Shown: positions 35,220 to 41,036 of the stretch, piece by piece
Position numbering within the stretch: the stretch's first letter is position 1
Layout of the letters: the number at the start of each line of letters is the position of its first letter
Origin: Sanguibacter sp. HDW7
Lineage (GTDB): Bacteria > Actinomycetota > Actinomycetes > Actinomycetales > Cellulomonadaceae
DNA length: 64,000 nt
Assembly (NCBI RefSeq): GCF_011300875.1
Contig: NZ_CP049862.1
Location: forward strand, 2,728,001-2,792,000
Reading direction: 5' to 3'
Program-made: the position numbers and the translations under genes
Notes under the pieces: generated by a model
Told to the model about the DNA's origin: nothing
What the model saw: only the letters and a program-made list of their open reading frames with translations
Database searches by the model: none

Positions 35220-36091
35220 CGACCGAGCTACCCCCCACGACCCCGCCCGCGCCCCGCTGGCACCGCTACGTCGCGATCGGCGACTCCTTCACCGAGGGCC
35301 TCTGGGACCGCGAGGCCGAGGGGTCCGACGCATGCCGCGGCTGGGCCGACCGCCTCGCCGAGCACCTCGACGCGCGCACGCCCGGCGGCACCGAGTACGC
35401 CAACCTCGCCGTCCGCGGCCGCCTGCTCGGCCCGATCCTCACCGACCAGCTCCCCGCGGCGCTCGACCTGCAGCCCGACCTCGTCTCGATCGTCGGCGGC
35501 GGCAACGACATCCTGCGGCCCGGCGTCGACGTCGACCGGCTCGCCGACCGTCTCGAGAACGCCGTCGTGCGTGTCCGCGAGACCGGGGCCGACGTCCTGC
35601 TCGCCACCGGCGTCGACGCCGACGGCTCGGCGCTCCTGCGCCTCACCAGGCCGCGCGTCGCGACGTTCAACGCGCACGTGTGGTCGATCGCGCGCCGCCA
35701 CGGTGCGTTCGTGCTCGACCAGTGGGGCATGCGCTTCATCAAGGACTGGCGCCTCTGGGACGTCGACCGCCTCCACCTCACGAGCGAGGGCCACCGGCGC
35801 GTCGCCGAGGGCGCGCTCGAGGCCCTGGGCCTCGAGCCGACCGACCCCGCGTGGAACACGCCGCTCGACGCACCCGACACCGAGGCCTGGGCCGTGCGCG
35901 CCCGCGAGAACGCTGTGTGGATGCGGCAGCACGCGCTGCCGTGGATGCAGCGGCGGCTCACAGGGCGCTCGTCGGGCGACGGCCGCAGCGCCAAGCGGCC
36001 CGCGCCCGCAGCGCCCGGTTCCGGTGCAGCAGGGGAACACGCGGCAGGAGCGCCCAGGGACAGCGCCGGCTCAGGAGCAGACGAAGCCTGA
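35207..36091 (+). CDS. SGNH/GDSL hydrolase
   Basis: A 294-residue esterase/lipase-like enzyme. Block I is VAIGDSFTEGLWD (catalytic Ser), block III-like NLAVRGRLLG then VGGGNDILRPG (oxyanion Asn), and block V VDRLHLTSEGHRRVAEG (Asp-x-x-His dyad). There is no signal peptide, so it is cytoplasmic or peripheral. A 50-residue C-terminal tail is low-complexity. The ATG at 35207 overlaps ung; a GTG at 35216 is an alternative. Its 3' end overlaps the convergent secreted-protein gene by 21 nt. Confidence 0.9.
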   Translation: MVPVTTELPPTTPPAPRWHRYVAIGDSFTEGLWDREAEGSDACRGWADRLAEHLDARTPGGTEYANLAVRGRLLGPILTDQLPAALDLQPDLVSIVGGGNDILRPGVDVDRLADRLENAVVRVRETGADVLLATGVDADGSALLRLTRPRVATFNAHVWSIARRHGAFVLDQWGMRFIKDWRLWDVDRLHLTSEGHRRVAEGALEALGLEPTDPAWNTPLDAPDTEAWAVRARENAVWMRQHALPWMQRRLTGRSSGDGRSAKRPAPAAPGSGAAGEHAAGAPRDSAGSGADEA

Positions 36092-36883
36092 GCCGCCGGC
36101 CCGGTTCTCCTTGATCGGCACGAAGACGTTGGTGTTCCACGCGGCGACGTCCGCGACGATGACGGGCAGCGTCGAGCACGACGTCCCGGGCACCGCGACC
36201 AGGTTGCCCGGCCCGACCCCCGTCGTCGTCCACCTCCAGCCCGACGGCATGCCGACCGCGGTAGAGAAGTCGAGCGTCACCCGGACGATCTCGCCCGCGC
36301 CGTAGTCAACCGTCGGGGCGACGACCGTGAAGTAGGCGTTGGCCTCGCGGTTCGGTGCGGCGCCCCACGAGTTGTTGACACGGAAGTCCGTCAGGCTGCA
36401 CGGCTTGCCGGTCACAGTGCCCGACGCGGTGCGCACGACGCATCCGGTCGTCACCTGCGGCGTGAAGGTCCAGGAGGCCGGCACGGGCCAGCCGTCGAGC
36501 GTCGCCCAGACGGAGCCTGCCGTGGTCGTCGGCGGGACGAACGCGGGGACGGTCACAGTGAAGGCGCCTGACGCGACCGCCGCGGCCGGCTGCGCGACGA
36601 CCACCTGCGCCCATGCCGTCCCGGTACGACCCGCGACCCGGACGGTCCCGAGGGTGCAGCCTGACGGGACACCTGAGACCCGGACGCGGGTGTAGGTGCC
36701 GCCCGCGCTCGCCGTGCCGTCGGGCGTCACGGCGACTGTGGCGCTGCCGCAGCGGGCCACGCTCGTCGCGACCGCGCGCGTGGGGCCGACGAGCGAGAGC
36801 TGGCTCGCGCTCGCCGTTCCGGTACCGAGCAGCAGGGTCGCGAGGATGACGGCAAGCCACGCCCCTGCGGTCCGTCGCGACAT
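36071..36883 (-). CDS. Large secreted partner of the SipW-type peptidase
   Basis: A 270-residue exported protein. A signal segment (about 5-27, GAWLAVILATLLLGTGTASA) ends with the ASASQLSL motif also seen in the small paralogues at this locus. The mature part is Ser/Thr/Val-rich with spaced Cys (ARCGSATV, SGCTLGTV, TTGCVVRT, KPCSLTDF, GTSCSTLP, final FVCS), suggesting disulfide-stabilised beta domains. There is no sortase motif or anchor. It shares one base with the signal-peptidase stop (TGATG), so it is co-translated. Probably a surface or extracellular-matrix component; no named family recognised. Confidence 0.65.
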   Translation of the reverse strand: MSRRTAGAWLAVILATLLLGTGTASASQLSLVGPTRAVATSVARCGSATVAVTPDGTASAGGTYTRVRVSGVPSGCTLGTVRVAGRTGTAWAQVVVAQPAAAVASGAFTVTVPAFVPPTTTAGSVWATLDGWPVPASWTFTPQVTTGCVVRTASGTVTGKPCSLTDFRVNNSWGAAPNREANAYFTVVAPTVDYGAGEIVRVTLDFSTAVGMPSGWRWTTTGVGPGNLVAVPGTSCSTLPVIVADVAAWNTNVFVPIKENRAGGSGFVCS

Positions 36884-37596
36884 CACAAGAGGGCCTTGTC
36901 GTCGTCGGGCAGGGTGAGGCCGTCCTCGACCGGCGCGTCGCCGTACCTGGCGTCGACCGGGGCGTCGTCGGCGAGATCGTCGTCCGCGGTGTCGTCCGCG
37001 GTGTCGTCCGCGGTGTCGTCCGCGGTGTCGTCCGCGGTGTCGTCCGCGGTGTCGTCCGCGGTGTCGTCGCGAGGGCCTTCGGCCTCCGCGCGACCCCGTG
37101 GGTCCTTGTCGGGCCACAGGAAGAAGGCCGCGGCGATGAGCAGACAGCTGAGCCACACGACGGGGTTCGCGAGCGACGTCAGTACCGTGCCGACCCTAGG
37201 CACGTGGAGGACCGCACTGCCGAGGACCTGCTCGTCCGTCGGGTGGAACGGGTCGTCCGCCGGGTTGTTGTCGCCGCGGAGCACCCATCCGGAGGAGTCG
37301 CCGCCCACGATCCGGTGGATGACGCGCCCGCCCTGGGTCTCCGGGGTCGCGTAGACGACGATGTCACCCACGGCGGGGTCGGCGCACCGGGAGACGACGA
37401 GGTCCCCGGTGTAGAGGGTGGGTTCCATCGAGTGGCCGCTGACGATGGTCAGGGTCGTGCACCCGCCGAGCTGGACCGGCCAGACGAACCACAGCGCGAC
37501 GACCAGCAAGGGCCACAGCAGAACGTTCACGAGCACGCGTCGTACCCGGTGCGCACGGTGGGCACCGGGTACGACGGGCTCGTGAACGTCGGTCAT
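36883..37596 (-). CDS. sipW: SipW-type (ER-type) signal peptidase I
   Basis: A membrane-bound signal peptidase of 237 residues. TM1 is at about 23-42, the catalytic Ser in IVSGHSMEPTLYTGDLV (about 45-70), and a His in GGRVIHRIVGG in place of the bacterial Lys, the mark of the ER/SipW subtype. DNNPADDPFHPTDEQVLG is the last conserved box, and a second TM is at about 145-165. The acidic tail carries the DDTA repeats. The genes on either side encode likely substrates. It starts 4 nt after the upstream small secreted gene, with which it is translationally coupled. Confidence 0.88.
   Translation of the reverse strand: MTDVHEPVVPGAHRAHRVRRVLVNVLLWPLLVVALWFVWPVQLGGCTTLTIVSGHSMEPTLYTGDLVVSRCADPAVGDIVVYATPETQGGRVIHRIVGGDSSGWVLRGDNNPADDPFHPTDEQVLGSAVLHVPRVGTVLTSLANPVVWLSCLLIAAAFFLWPDKDPRGRAEAEGPRDDTADDTADDTADDTADDTADDTADDTADDDLADDAPVDARYGDAPVEDGLTLPDDDKALL
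36980..37068. repeat. Tandem 12-bp repeats (TADD coding)
   Basis: Six perfect copies of GTGTCGTCCGCG (36989-37060) with partial copies on both sides, in the tail of the sipW gene, encode seven Asp-Asp-Thr-Ala units. Perfect identity points to recent expansion or active slippage. Each step changes the tail by four residues and keeps the frame. Confidence 0.9.
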
Positions 37597-37600
37597 GCGC

Positions 37601-38029
37601 TCAGTAGATCGTCAGGGCCCAGTTGGTGATCGACTCGGGCGCAGCGATGCTCGCGATGTTCGCGGAGATCGACGTGCCGCTCACGGCGCCGGTCGAACCG
37701 AGCTTCGTCCAGGACGACGCGCCGTTGACGGAGTAGGCGATCTCGTAGTGCTTGCCGCCGCACGCGCCCTCGATGCCCGTGAGGTCGACCGTCGAGCCGG
37801 ACCACGGGTTGGTCGTCGACGAGGTGAACGTCGGTGCGCCGTAGGAGACAGTTACGGGCGCGGTGCCCTGGCAGCCCGCGTCGACCGCGACATTGCCTGC
37901 CTGAAGCTGGCCGGAGCCCCAGACGAGGTCGAGCTGCGAGGCCGAGGCGAGCGAGAGGCCCGCGACGCCGACGATCGCGAGGGCGATAGCGGCGGCACGA
38001 CGAGGGCGACGGGAGGTGGTGGAGGACAT
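37601..38029 (-). CDS. Small SipW-dependent secreted protein (paralogue 1)
   Basis: A 142-residue exported protein. Basic TSRRPRRAAAI is followed by a hydrophobic segment and the cleavage-region motif LASASQLDLVWGSGQLQAG. The mature beta-rich domain has Cys pairs in DAGCQGTA and GACGGKHYEIAYSV, and ends NWALTIY. It resembles the alternate-type signal-peptide proteins found next to SipW in actinobacteria (recollection). It heads the operon with sipW and the large secreted gene. GGGAG precedes ATG 38029. Confidence 0.72.
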   Translation of the reverse strand: MSSTTSRRPRRAAAIALAIVGVAGLSLASASQLDLVWGSGQLQAGNVAVDAGCQGTAPVTVSYGAPTFTSSTTNPWSGSTVDLTGIEGACGGKHYEIAYSVNGASSWTKLGSTGAVSGTSISANIASIAAPESITNWALTIY

Positions 38030-38420
38030 AGTTGCTCCCAAACGTGGGTGGTAGGTGGTCACGGCACGACGGCCGACGAGCACGGGGGTGCTGGTCGGGA
38101 TCGGCAGTCCGCGACGAGATGCGCCACACCTCGCGGCGCGGCGGCGCTCACGCTACGCACCGTCCCGGCGCAGGTGAAAGCCGCTTGGCGGACCTGATAG
38201 GTCCTTCCACCTAGACCGTTCAGCGGGATCCCGCAGGCACTTCCGGATGCGCGCAGCAAGTTTGGGTGATAAGAGACTTGCTTGATTCGCCACGGACAGG
38301 GCATCTAGGGCGTGAAAAATCCGCCGAGGCAGGCAGGACGTGACTCGCGCCACTCTGTCGCCCGCGCCCATATTCACCCGCTCCGCGAGGCTGTCCGGGA
38401 GCCTCGAGGCGTGTCCGCCC
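38030..38420. other. Gene-free 391 nt upstream of the SipW operon
   Basis: No ORF is supported. It probably holds the promoter and a long leader for the minus-strand SipW operon. It contains a cluster of nested palindromes (38172-38234, separate entry). Locally AT-richer DNA near 38260-38330 includes TAGAT-like -10 sequences on the minus strand. I could not fix the promoter. Confidence 0.55.
38172..38234. promoter_or_regulatory. Nested palindromes: possible structured leader RNA or operator
   Basis: An outer stem AGGTG (38172-38176) with CACCT (38208-38212) encloses two hairpins: CCGC-TTG-GCGG (38181-38191) and GGACCT-GAT-AGGTCC (38190-38204), which share two bases. The 12-bp palindrome GCGGGATCCCGC (38223-38234) lies beside it. 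Read on the minus strand it would be part of the 5' leader of the small secreted gene, about 145 nt upstream of its ATG. It fits no riboswitch consensus I know. Confidence 0.4.
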
Positions 38421-38852
38421 TCAGTAGATCCTCAGGGACCAGCCGGTGATCGCCTCAGGGTTACCCACGCCCTCGAGGCTCACCGTGAGCGACGACCCTG
38501 AGACGACTCCGACCGTGCCGAAGCGCTTCCACGACTCCGAGCCGTCGGTCGAGTAGGCGACCTCGTAGGTCCTGCCCGCGCACGCCTCCGCGATGCCCGC
38601 GAACTCGACGGTCGCGACACGCCAGGGATCCTCGCCGACCGCCGCGACGACCGGTGCACCGTACGCGACGACAACCGCGTCCCGGTCCTGGCAGCCCGCG
38701 GTCGCACGAACGCTGCCTTGCTGGAGACTGCCTGTGCCCCACGGGAGGTCGAGCCACGTGGCCGAGGCGAGCGAGAGCCCTACGACCCCGGCAAGCGCGA
38801 CGAGGGCCGCTACGACGCGCCGCGCACGGCGCGGGTCGGTGGCGCGGAGCAT
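38421..38852 (-). CDS. Small SipW-dependent secreted protein (paralogue 2)
   Basis: A 143-residue paralogue of the preceding protein. It has basic DPRRARR, a hydrophobic segment, the cleavage motif LSLASATWLDLPWGTGSLQQG, two Cys (TAGCQDRD, EACAGRTYEVAYSTDG) and the end GWSLRIY. Positions of Cys, Trp and the terminal Tyr are conserved between the two, so they arose by duplication. GGAGGTGA precedes ATG 38852. It lies between the SipW operon and the sensor kinase gene and has its own 147 nt upstream region. Confidence 0.7.
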   Translation of the reverse strand: MLRATDPRRARRVVAALVALAGVVGLSLASATWLDLPWGTGSLQQGSVRATAGCQDRDAVVVAYGAPVVAAVGEDPWRVATVEFAGIAEACAGRTYEVAYSTDGSESWKRFGTVGVVSGSSLTVSLEGVGNPEAITGWSLRIY

Positions 38853-38999: not shown

Positions 39000-40211
39000 T
39001 CACTCGTTCGACGGCAGATGGCCGAGCCCGGTGATCTTCTCCCGCGTCACGGGGATCCGCGCCCACAGGTGCGCATGGTGCAGCGCCGTCCCGTCGACCT
39101 CGCCCGACGTGATGCGCGACGCCTCGACGTCCGAACCCAGGACGAGCGTCCCGCCCGCTAGCTCGACCCGCTCACGCAGCCGGCGCGTGCCCGAGCCGTG
39201 CGTCGCCCGGTGCACGTCGACGGCTGCACCGTTGTTGGCGACGTCGACGATGATCGTCGCGTCGCCCTCGAGGTCGATCGACACGTCGAACGACGTCGCG
39301 TGCCCGTGCCGCAGCCCGTTCGTCACCGCCTCCTCGACGATCCGCACCACGAGCAGGCGGTCCGCAGGCCGCACCTCCGAGTTGCCGGGGTCGTCGAGCT
39401 TTCGCAGCCGGTCGCCGATGTGGAGCCGGGTCGCGATGCCCGTCGGCAGGCGCCGCAGCAGCATGCGTACCGCAGGCACGACGCCGATCTCGATGCCCTC
39501 CGGGTAGAGCATGCGGCTCGTCGCCCGCACATCGTTCTCGCGGATGTCCTCGAGGTCGTTGCGCAGCGCGACGAGCGGTGCGATGTCCTCCTCGCTGCGG
39601 TCGCGCCGACGCGCCTCCGTGATGAACATGTCGACCTGCACCGTCGCGATGACGAGACGCTGCTGGAGACTGCCGTGGAGCCCCTCCGCGATCGAACGTC
39701 GGACGCGCACCTCCTCGGTCTCGAGCGTGCGCAGCGCGAGCTCGCGCTGGTAGGCGGCGTCGGCCGCGAGCCTGGCCTCGAACCGCTCGCCGCGGCGCAC
39801 GGAAGCGTAGGCGAAGCCGAGGCACGCAGCGCCCAGGCAGAACGCGAACCCTGAGATCGTCTCGACGCTGAGGATCCCCGGAGCCTCAGGGAGCTCGTGC
39901 GCGAGGACGAAGAGCCCGAGCCGCATCCCCGCCGCGATCGCGGACGCGAGGACGATCCCCGGCAGCGCCCCCCCCAGCCGACGCGCCCGGTAGGCGGGGA
40001 CGACCGCGAGGACGAGCGCGAGGACGACACCCGTGAGAACGTTGATGAGGAACCGGGTCCACGACGTGACGATCGCGGCCGGCAGCTCGAAGAATCCCTG
40101 TGCCCACAGGTAGGCGCCCGTCACCGTGTAGAACGTCGTGATGATGACGAGGGACGCGACGACGTGCGCGAACCTGTCACGACGGTCCTCGACGGGGGTG
40201 GTGGTGCCCAT
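39000..40211 (-). CDS. Membrane sensor histidine kinase (NarL/LuxR-system type)
   Basis: A 403-residue kinase with about four N-terminal TM segments (15-145) and no large sensor domain, so it may sense the membrane itself. The dimerisation/phospho-acceptor helix reads RRSIAEGLHGSLQQRLVIAT (His in GLHG), matching HisKA_3-type kinases. The HATPase region has VRIVEEAVTNGLRHGHATS and a reduced G-box (HGSGTRRLRERVELAGG). It is divergent from its LuxR-type regulator. ATG 40211 lies 5 nt after GATACT with no ribosome site, so the mRNA is probably leaderless. Confidence 0.85.
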   Translation of the reverse strand: MGTTTPVEDRRDRFAHVVASLVIITTFYTVTGAYLWAQGFFELPAAIVTSWTRFLINVLTGVVLALVLAVVPAYRARRLGGALPGIVLASAIAAGMRLGLFVLAHELPEAPGILSVETISGFAFCLGAACLGFAYASVRRGERFEARLAADAAYQRELALRTLETEEVRVRRSIAEGLHGSLQQRLVIATVQVDMFITEARRRDRSEEDIAPLVALRNDLEDIRENDVRATSRMLYPEGIEIGVVPAVRMLLRRLPTGIATRLHIGDRLRKLDDPGNSEVRPADRLLVVRIVEEAVTNGLRHGHATSFDVSIDLEGDATIIVDVANNGAAVDVHRATHGSGTRRLRERVELAGGTLVLGSDVEASRITSGEVDGTALHHAHLWARIPVTREKITGLGHLPSNE

Positions 40212-40215
40212 GCAC

Positions 40216-40250
40216 AAGTATCACCACATGCCGTCACCTACGGGAGTACC
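40216..40250 (-). promoter_or_regulatory. Leaderless promoter of the sensor kinase gene
   Basis: On the minus strand, GGTACTCCCGT (40250 down to 40240), 17 nt, then GATACT, 5 nt, then the ATG at 40211. The same arrangement in mirror image precedes the regulator gene. The 11-bp block is in the -35 position, so it is either the -35 of an alternative sigma factor or an activator/repressor site. Confidence 0.65.
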
Positions 40251-40330
40251 CGGGCACGGCACTCTCCGAACGGCGCCACAAGGGCGCTCCTGGGTGAGCC
40301 ACGCGCCCCGCACGGGGGACGTTCGGCCCA

Positions 40331-40364
40331 GGTACTCCCGTCCTGGCCCGTCAGACGCGATACT
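40331..40364 (+). promoter_or_regulatory. Leaderless promoter of the response regulator gene
   Basis: GGTACTCCCGT (40331-40341), 17 nt, GATACT (40359-40364), 6 nt, then ATG 40371. Block, spacer length and -10 are identical to those of the divergent kinase gene. The two blocks form a perfect 11-bp inverted repeat across the intergenic region. Confidence 0.65.
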
Positions 40365-40370
40365 GGGGCG

Positions 40371-41036
40371 ATGGAGAACGGTGGAGGTACCCTGCGCGTC
40401 GCGGTCGTCGAGGACCACACGCTGTTCCGCAGCATGCTCGAGCACCTTGTCACCGAGGTCTCGGACATGTCGCTCGTCTGCTCGGTCGAGACCGCGACGG
40501 AGGCGCGGGCCCGCATCACGCCGGGCTCGACCGACGTCGTCATCCTCGACGTCGACCTGCCCGACGGCAACGGCATCGGGCTCGGCATGCTGCTGTGCCG
40601 CGCCGATCCCGCGCTCAAGATCGTCCTGCTCTCCGCACAGGACGCGATCGACCTCATGCTCGACCTCCCGCGCGACATCGCCGGCAGCTGGAGCTACCTG
40701 TCGAAGACGTCGACGAACGACTCCGACTCCCTCCTGCGGGCGGTGCGCATCGCCGCCGCGGGCGGCTCGACCCTCGACCCGGTGCTGCTCGAGCGCATGA
40801 GGCCGCGCGCCGGCTCACGCGTCGCCCAGCTCACCGACCGTCAGTACTCGGTCCTGCGACTGCTCGCGTCCGGCCTGTCGAACGCGGGGATCGCGCACGA
40901 GCTCGGCATCGCCGAGAAGTCCGTGCAGAACCACGTCAACGCCGTCTACTCGACCCTCGGCATCGACGCCCACCCCGACCGCAACCCCCGCGTGAGCGCA
41001 GCACTCCAGCTCATCGAAGAGACCGGGCCCGCCTGA
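40371..41036 (+). CDS. LuxR-family response regulator
   Basis: A 221-residue regulator. The receiver domain (8-125) has VAVVEDHTLFRSMLEHLV, phospho-acceptor Asp in VVILDVDLPDGNGIG and the Lys in YLSKTSTND. The GerE/LuxR helix-turn-helix is at about 150-205 (LTDRQYSVLRLLASGLSNAG, then AEKSVQNHVNAVYSTLGI). It pairs with the divergent kinase. The neighbouring SipW secretion genes are the nearest candidate targets (inference). No ribosome site precedes ATG 40371. Confidence 0.9.
   Translation: MENGGGTLRVAVVEDHTLFRSMLEHLVTEVSDMSLVCSVETATEARARITPGSTDVVILDVDLPDGNGIGLGMLLCRADPALKIVLLSAQDAIDLMLDLPRDIAGSWSYLSKTSTNDSDSLLRAVRIAAAGGSTLDPVLLERMRPRAGSRVAQLTDRQYSVLRLLASGLSNAGIAHELGIAEKSVQNHVNAVYSTLGIDAHPDRNPRVSAALQLIEETGPA

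Follow-up and report, generated by a model that had tools for sequence, protein, structure and literature searches.

Within the window we analyzed, a 64-kb stretch (C1:2728001-2792000) of the 3.35-Mb genome of Sanguibacter sp. HDW7, a sensor histidine kinase gene and a response regulator gene are transcribed away from each other, and both are preceded by the same short element. The features of the locus, numbered from the first base of the window, are as follows:

39000..40211, minus strand: sensor histidine kinase, predicted leaderless start (HATPase_c below cut-off, H-box by pattern)
40217..40222, minus strand: -10 hexamer GATACT of the kinase gene
40240..40250, minus strand: 11-bp block GGTACTCCCGT, kinase arm, -39 to -29 from the A of ATG
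40251..40255, minus strand: GCCCG, block extension, kinase arm
40326..40330, plus strand: GCCCA, leftward block extension, regulator arm (4 of 5 bases alike between the arms)
40331..40341, plus strand: 11-bp block GGTACTCCCGT, regulator arm, -40 to -30 from the A of ATG
40359..40364, plus strand: -10 hexamer GATACT of the regulator gene
40371..41036, plus strand: NarL/LuxR-type response regulator (receiver and GerE helix-turn-helix, by Pfam), predicted leaderless start

The regulator matches the Pfam models Response_reg and GerE, both above their cut-offs, and residues E14, D15, D60, S88 and K112, whose functional roles we presume, are invariant in all 13 aligned orthologues. Its sequence points to a DNA-binding family with an intact phospho-acceptor, as autoregulated two-component operons require. 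In the kinase, HATPase_c lies marginally under its Pfam cut-off (25 vs 26.4 bits), no HisKA_3 match was listed by Pfam, and the best NCBIfam match, UhpB, is far under its cut-off. Both proteins score below the cut-off of every NCBIfam model shown for either, the regulator reaching 71 bits against the NarL equivalence model, whose cut-off is 250. The kinase has an H-box (RRSIAEGLHGSLQQ), and a loose pattern found one in 31 of 31 loci. In all 31, the histidine presumed to accept the phosphate is followed by G, S or A, at a position that, according to the accessible part of PMC3510030, is usually acidic in HisKA_3 kinases (the DxxxQ motif) and needed for phosphatase activity in NarX. This kinase family may be one without ordinary phosphatase activity.

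Ahead of each gene, GGTACTCCCGT is followed by 17 nt, GATACT and a short gap, which is 6 nt long for the regulator (GGGGCG, before the ATG at 40371 on the plus strand) and 5 nt for the kinase (TGTGC, before the ATG at 40211 on the minus strand). An earlier note, made from the letters of the window, had placed this element before both genes, and its positions were correct to the base. Its description of the two 11-bp blocks as reverse complements 80 nt apart was confirmed as well, and the identity of the arms is even longer, extending past the 11-mer to GCCCnGGTACTCCCGT (15 of 16 positions, at 40326-40341 and 40255-40240). As it also stated, neither ATG is preceded by a ribosome site, with the qualification that GGGG stands 2 nt upstream of the regulator ATG, too close for a usual site. 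The -35 hexamer at the usual spacing is TCCCGT, unlike the consensus TTGACA. The block forms no clear palindrome; the sites of dimeric regulators are usually palindromic.

Beside the kinase gene lies a minus-strand cassette (36071-38852) encoding a signal peptidase, a larger protein that looks exported and two small ones that look secreted. The peptidase, which scores above the cut-off of NCBIfam TIGR02228, is of the archaeal/SipW type, and a relative, in some cases a weak match, occurs within the fetched flank in 23 of the 30 loci L066-L095; of the seven misses, L078 and L080 have just about 1.5 kb on that side, and Flavimobilis rhizosphaerae and Sanguibacter hominis are among the other five. 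Near the C-terminal end of the peptidase gene (about 36960-37070, minus strand), the predicted protein contains a run of repeated TADD units. The two-component pair may control this cassette, and no near copy of the block was found before it in the window. A literature search for SipW with Cellulomonas returned only work on Bacillus subtilis, and one with signal-peptide terms only work on Bacillus.

Leaderless promoters and the added block

Judged by sequence, both genes appear to have the leaderless sigma-70-type promoters of Actinobacteria, with a -10-like hexamer 4-8 nt before the start and no Shine-Dalgarno sequence. Leaderless genes in Actinobacteria have TANNNT some 12 bp ahead of their start codons, and roughly 20% of actinobacterial genes are predicted to be leaderless, according to the accessible part of PMC3160421; compared with what is described there, the HDW7 genes are alike in having a -10 hexamer 5-6 nt before both ATGs and different in forming a divergent pair, both predicted leaderless, with a second shared element.

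Among the regulator's orthologues, a set comprising the best 80 of at least 264 confirmed candidates, a -10-like hexamer (NATAnT) lies 4-8 nt before the start codon in 36 of 37 upstream regions, and the 37th (L087) has a 9-nt gap. The block accompanies it in two of these 36, HDW7 and F. rhizosphaerae, and is missing from 34. A further regulator set, from partly overlapping genomes, has the hexamer in 16 of 16 and no plus-strand ACTCCCG within 140 nt upstream. At loci L066-L099, ACTCCC in either direction occurs within 260 nt upstream in 6 of 34, one being F. rhizosphaerae; the other five have it once each, at -250 in two loci and at -230, -103 and -19 in the rest, counted from the aligned start. 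Because the regulator genes of relatives share the -10 hexamer and the leaderless start without the block, we regard the former as ordinary and the block as the extra. The Cellulomonas kinases (L070-L095) have a plausible start with a Shine-Dalgarno-like stretch in at least 16 of 26 loci, by eye, and no strict -10 pattern among the up to seven start candidates listed per locus, the starts being uncertain. Within the HDW7 genome, GATACT stands 5-7 nt before an ATG six times, against one in the control, and at least two of the four genes outside the pair look truly leaderless by eye, without ACTCCCG at this spacing.

These comparisons weigh on the possibility that the block is a core promoter element, that is, a -35 variant read by the housekeeping or an alternative sigma factor. 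Its exact position and the 17-nt spacer on both sides fit that role, but each of the two genomes with the block at this locus has exact copies of it at just two promoters, and both the 34 block-less regulator regions with a strict -10 and the other predicted leaderless genes of HDW7 with GATACT speak against it; we consider such an element improbable. The alternative sigma factor that the earlier note had offered as one explanation is unlikely, since exact composites of block and -10 are confined to this pair in both genomes, inexact ones stay at control level, and block-less relatives have a similar -10 for the regulator gene in the corresponding position. A further reading, of the blocks as an mRNA hairpin, is excluded if the genes are leaderless, because the blocks would then not be transcribed from these starts.

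Likeness of the arms and occurrence elsewhere

Dinucleotide shuffles of the 136-nt stretch that separates the -10 boxes yielded an equal-offset run of at least 11 in 10 of 20,000 trials (15 at a slip of one base and 36 at two), a figure that applies to this pair alone, the 64-kb window having offered its reader many other gene pairs. Over 45 positions, the arms agree at 24 in HDW7 (1 of 2000 shuffles as good) and at 22 in F. rhizosphaerae (8 of 2000); in three Plantibacter loci, they are not clearly alike beyond shuffles. The shuffles bear out the earlier judgment that such identity is unlikely to arise by chance and support the conclusion that the element shared by the two predicted leaderless promoters, at the -35 position of each, is non-random.

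In F. rhizosphaerae, ACTCCCG is present on both arms at unchanged spacing, and the neighboring bases differ (kinase arm, GGACTCCCGG; regulator arm, GCACTCCCGT). This conservation is only partly independent because the two species are close: the regulators are 95% identical, and 158 of 233 columns are alike across the intergenic region and about 30 nt of each gene. Such closeness, and the many pairs from which a reader scanning 64 kb could choose, would suit a chance likeness between upstream regions rich in GC that the sister species shares through common descent alone. The rarity of equally good shuffles and the persistence of the core on both arms, though about one-third of the columns differ, argue the other way, and we rate such an accident as very improbable.

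The earlier remark that the block was not seen elsewhere in the window stands, as there is no exact GGTACTCCCGT besides the two, and the 11-mer with up to two mismatches occurs at 18 places, counting these two, where 18.3 would be expected. Genome-wide, the exact 11-mer is found three times in HDW7, twice at the pair and once at C1:2935396; this third copy has no -10 at 15-19 nt and lies near the guessed start of an opposite-strand gene, which, from its sequence, we take to encode a phosphate-transport accessory protein. Allowing one mismatch gives 36 places (the three exact included) vs 66 in backward controls. The composite ACTCCCG-N19-ATACT is exact at two places in HDW7, both at the pair, and within two mismatches at 46 (the two included) vs 40 in backward controls; F. 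rhizosphaerae has two exact matches, both at this locus, and one with a single mismatch, against zero in the controls. Across 221 genomes of the family, exact composites lie at seven places in five genomes, four of them the mirrored pairs of this locus in HDW7 and F. rhizosphaerae and the other three singletons in three genomes; the backward controls also sum to three.

The genome scan for block plus -10 suggested in the earlier note accordingly led back to this pair and added no further genes. Searches for a regulon with the composite and with the mismatched 11-mer (in HDW7; the composite also in F. rhizosphaerae) gave no clear excess over backward controls, a null that covers this promoter spacing, with weaker or differently spaced sites outside its reach. 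The element belongs to this gene pair in two species, and to no detectable regulon at this spacing. One candidate for a second pair, the mirrored near-copy GGTTCTCCCGT (C1:3274063 and 3274094), is by eye a terminator-like hairpin stem between two genes. The hairpin spans C1:3274063-3274104 (L179), downstream of a gene that, from its sequence, we presume to be inositol-phosphate-synthase-like.

Promoter layouts among sister species

The genus includes F. rhizosphaerae, Flavimobilis marinus and S. hominis, and the block is found at this promoter pair in two of its six genomes, the other four having another layout. Conservation, which the earlier note had asked about, thus extends to one of the five other genomes of the genus and fails in four. 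The block is absent from the other four genomes of the genus (F. marinus, S. hominis, G002 and G003) and from S. suarezii and G229; the neighboring Sanguibacter group lacks it in both genomes with an orthologue at E<=1e-84, and the Cellulomonas loci examined lack it at this position.

In F. marinus, S. hominis, G002, G003, S. suarezii and G229, the six block-less sisters, kinase and regulator alike are predicted to be leaderless, with a -10-like hexamer 6 nt ahead of each start codon, and the opposed hexamers lie 14-15 nt apart (L067, L068, L069, L009, L010 and L180; in G229 by eye), compared with 136 nt in HDW7. At 14-15 nt, the -10 box of either gene reaches into the -35 slot of its counterpart, which would leave hardly any room for two polymerases simultaneously. 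In Escherichia coli, opposed and mutually exclusive promoters share one -10 element, according to the accessible part of PMC12825309 (on Salmonella, see also PMC10268837). Set beside that account, the opposed promoters of the sister loci would likewise admit one polymerase at a time, whereas their -10 boxes are separate, as are those of HDW7. A bidirectional promoter with a shared -10 was therefore rejected for HDW7 and the six sisters alike.

A palindrome common to the sisters was sought between their -10 boxes; the sequences differ, and no common operator was found there. Taken singly, F. marinus and one further sister genome are symmetrical at 12 of 15 positions (78 and 62 of 2000 shuffles as good) and S. 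suarezii at 8 of 14 (66 of 2000), and S. hominis and its sister at 4 and 6 of 15 (1665 and 871 of 2000).

The regulator itself has hardly changed: its recognition helix, EKSVQNHVNA.Y.TLGI, which we place by presumption from the family, differs at no more than two residues within the genus. In a tree of 19 regulator proteins (midpoint root, with Plantibacter on one side; G229 left out), both block-bearing species are nested within the overlapping-promoter set; the key forks are moderately supported, at 80/75 and 85/82. Because of this nesting, separated promoters with twin blocks are probably the derived state.

A candidate operator for joint control

The existence of the element, its non-randomness, its confinement (at this spacing) to the pair and its recurrence in one sister species are computed results, on which the following proposal builds. 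We infer that a protein binds the blocks, which would be twin copies of one operator, each lying over the -35 of a leaderless housekeeping-type promoter, so that one protein at both blocks would set the kinase and regulator genes to the same level. Its likeliest identity would be the pair's own phosphorylated response regulator, acting either as an activator from a class II-like position overlapping the -35 or as a repressor that blocks polymerase. An element restricted to the pair and kept in two species speaks for local joint control and against an alternative sigma factor, and it most likely lets the pair switch on and off together.

The earlier note had proposed, as one of two readings, that the LuxR-type regulator binds at the -35 position of both promoters and thereby regulates itself. 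Shared, non-random elements at that position are supported and autoregulation is plausible, but orthologues with block-less promoters have almost the same recognition helix, and for this reason we give autoregulation through the twin operator only an even chance. If the regulator does bind the block, the protein has stayed almost constant through a turnover of its site. A third-party transcription factor recognizing ACTCCCG at -35 and controlling the pair jointly would account for a site that changes between species beside an almost constant regulator, and all evidence for a real joint site counts equally for it. A third-party regulator would normally have other targets, however, and in HDW7 no excess of the element at this spacing was seen, and the 11-mer with up to one mismatch is scarcer than in backward controls; we find such a factor rather unlikely. 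For autoregulation by the pair's own regulator, too, no second target of the element was found at this spacing in the HDW7 genome.

Autoregulated divergent two-component systems with NarL/FixJ-family regulators are a known kind. The HDW7 locus resembles them in its divergent kinase and regulator genes, its twin sites over the -35 and its regulator family, and differs in that the site is present twice, one copy per gene at equal spacing, and not shared between the two, in that the block is non-palindromic and in that the site here is a candidate. The E. coli NarL heptamer is TACYYMT, as given in the accessible part of PMC4886647; TACTCCC matches it at six of seven positions, a loose resemblance, but the kept core is ACTCCCG, and F. 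rhizosphaerae does not retain the heptamer's first base. Searches of the literature with the block strings gave no title on such a system among the matches listed; those for overlapping leaderless promoters gave none relevant by title among the matches listed, and those for Flavimobilis nothing on this system by title. No paper on leaderless divergent two-component promoters was found, subscription journals and other names being outside these searches. Autoregulated divergent two-component genes and leaderless actinobacterial promoters are already known, and the layout here is unusually tidy.

Part of the interest lies in split and overlapping layouts that occur under one regulator. The locus offers a compact, testable case in which two-component promoters change between sister species, six overlapping and two split with twin sites, while the regulator stays almost constant, and it provides a first candidate operator for a kinase/regulator pair accompanied by a SipW-like signal peptidase gene. 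Tentatively, and as a possibility we would not yet call probable, an ancestral pair of mutually exclusive promoters may have split in the lineage of HDW7 and F. rhizosphaerae, each half receiving a copy of a new operator, so that competition between kinase and regulator gave way to equal joint control. If true, this would make the rewiring of a two-component circuit visible between sister species whose regulator is nearly unchanged.
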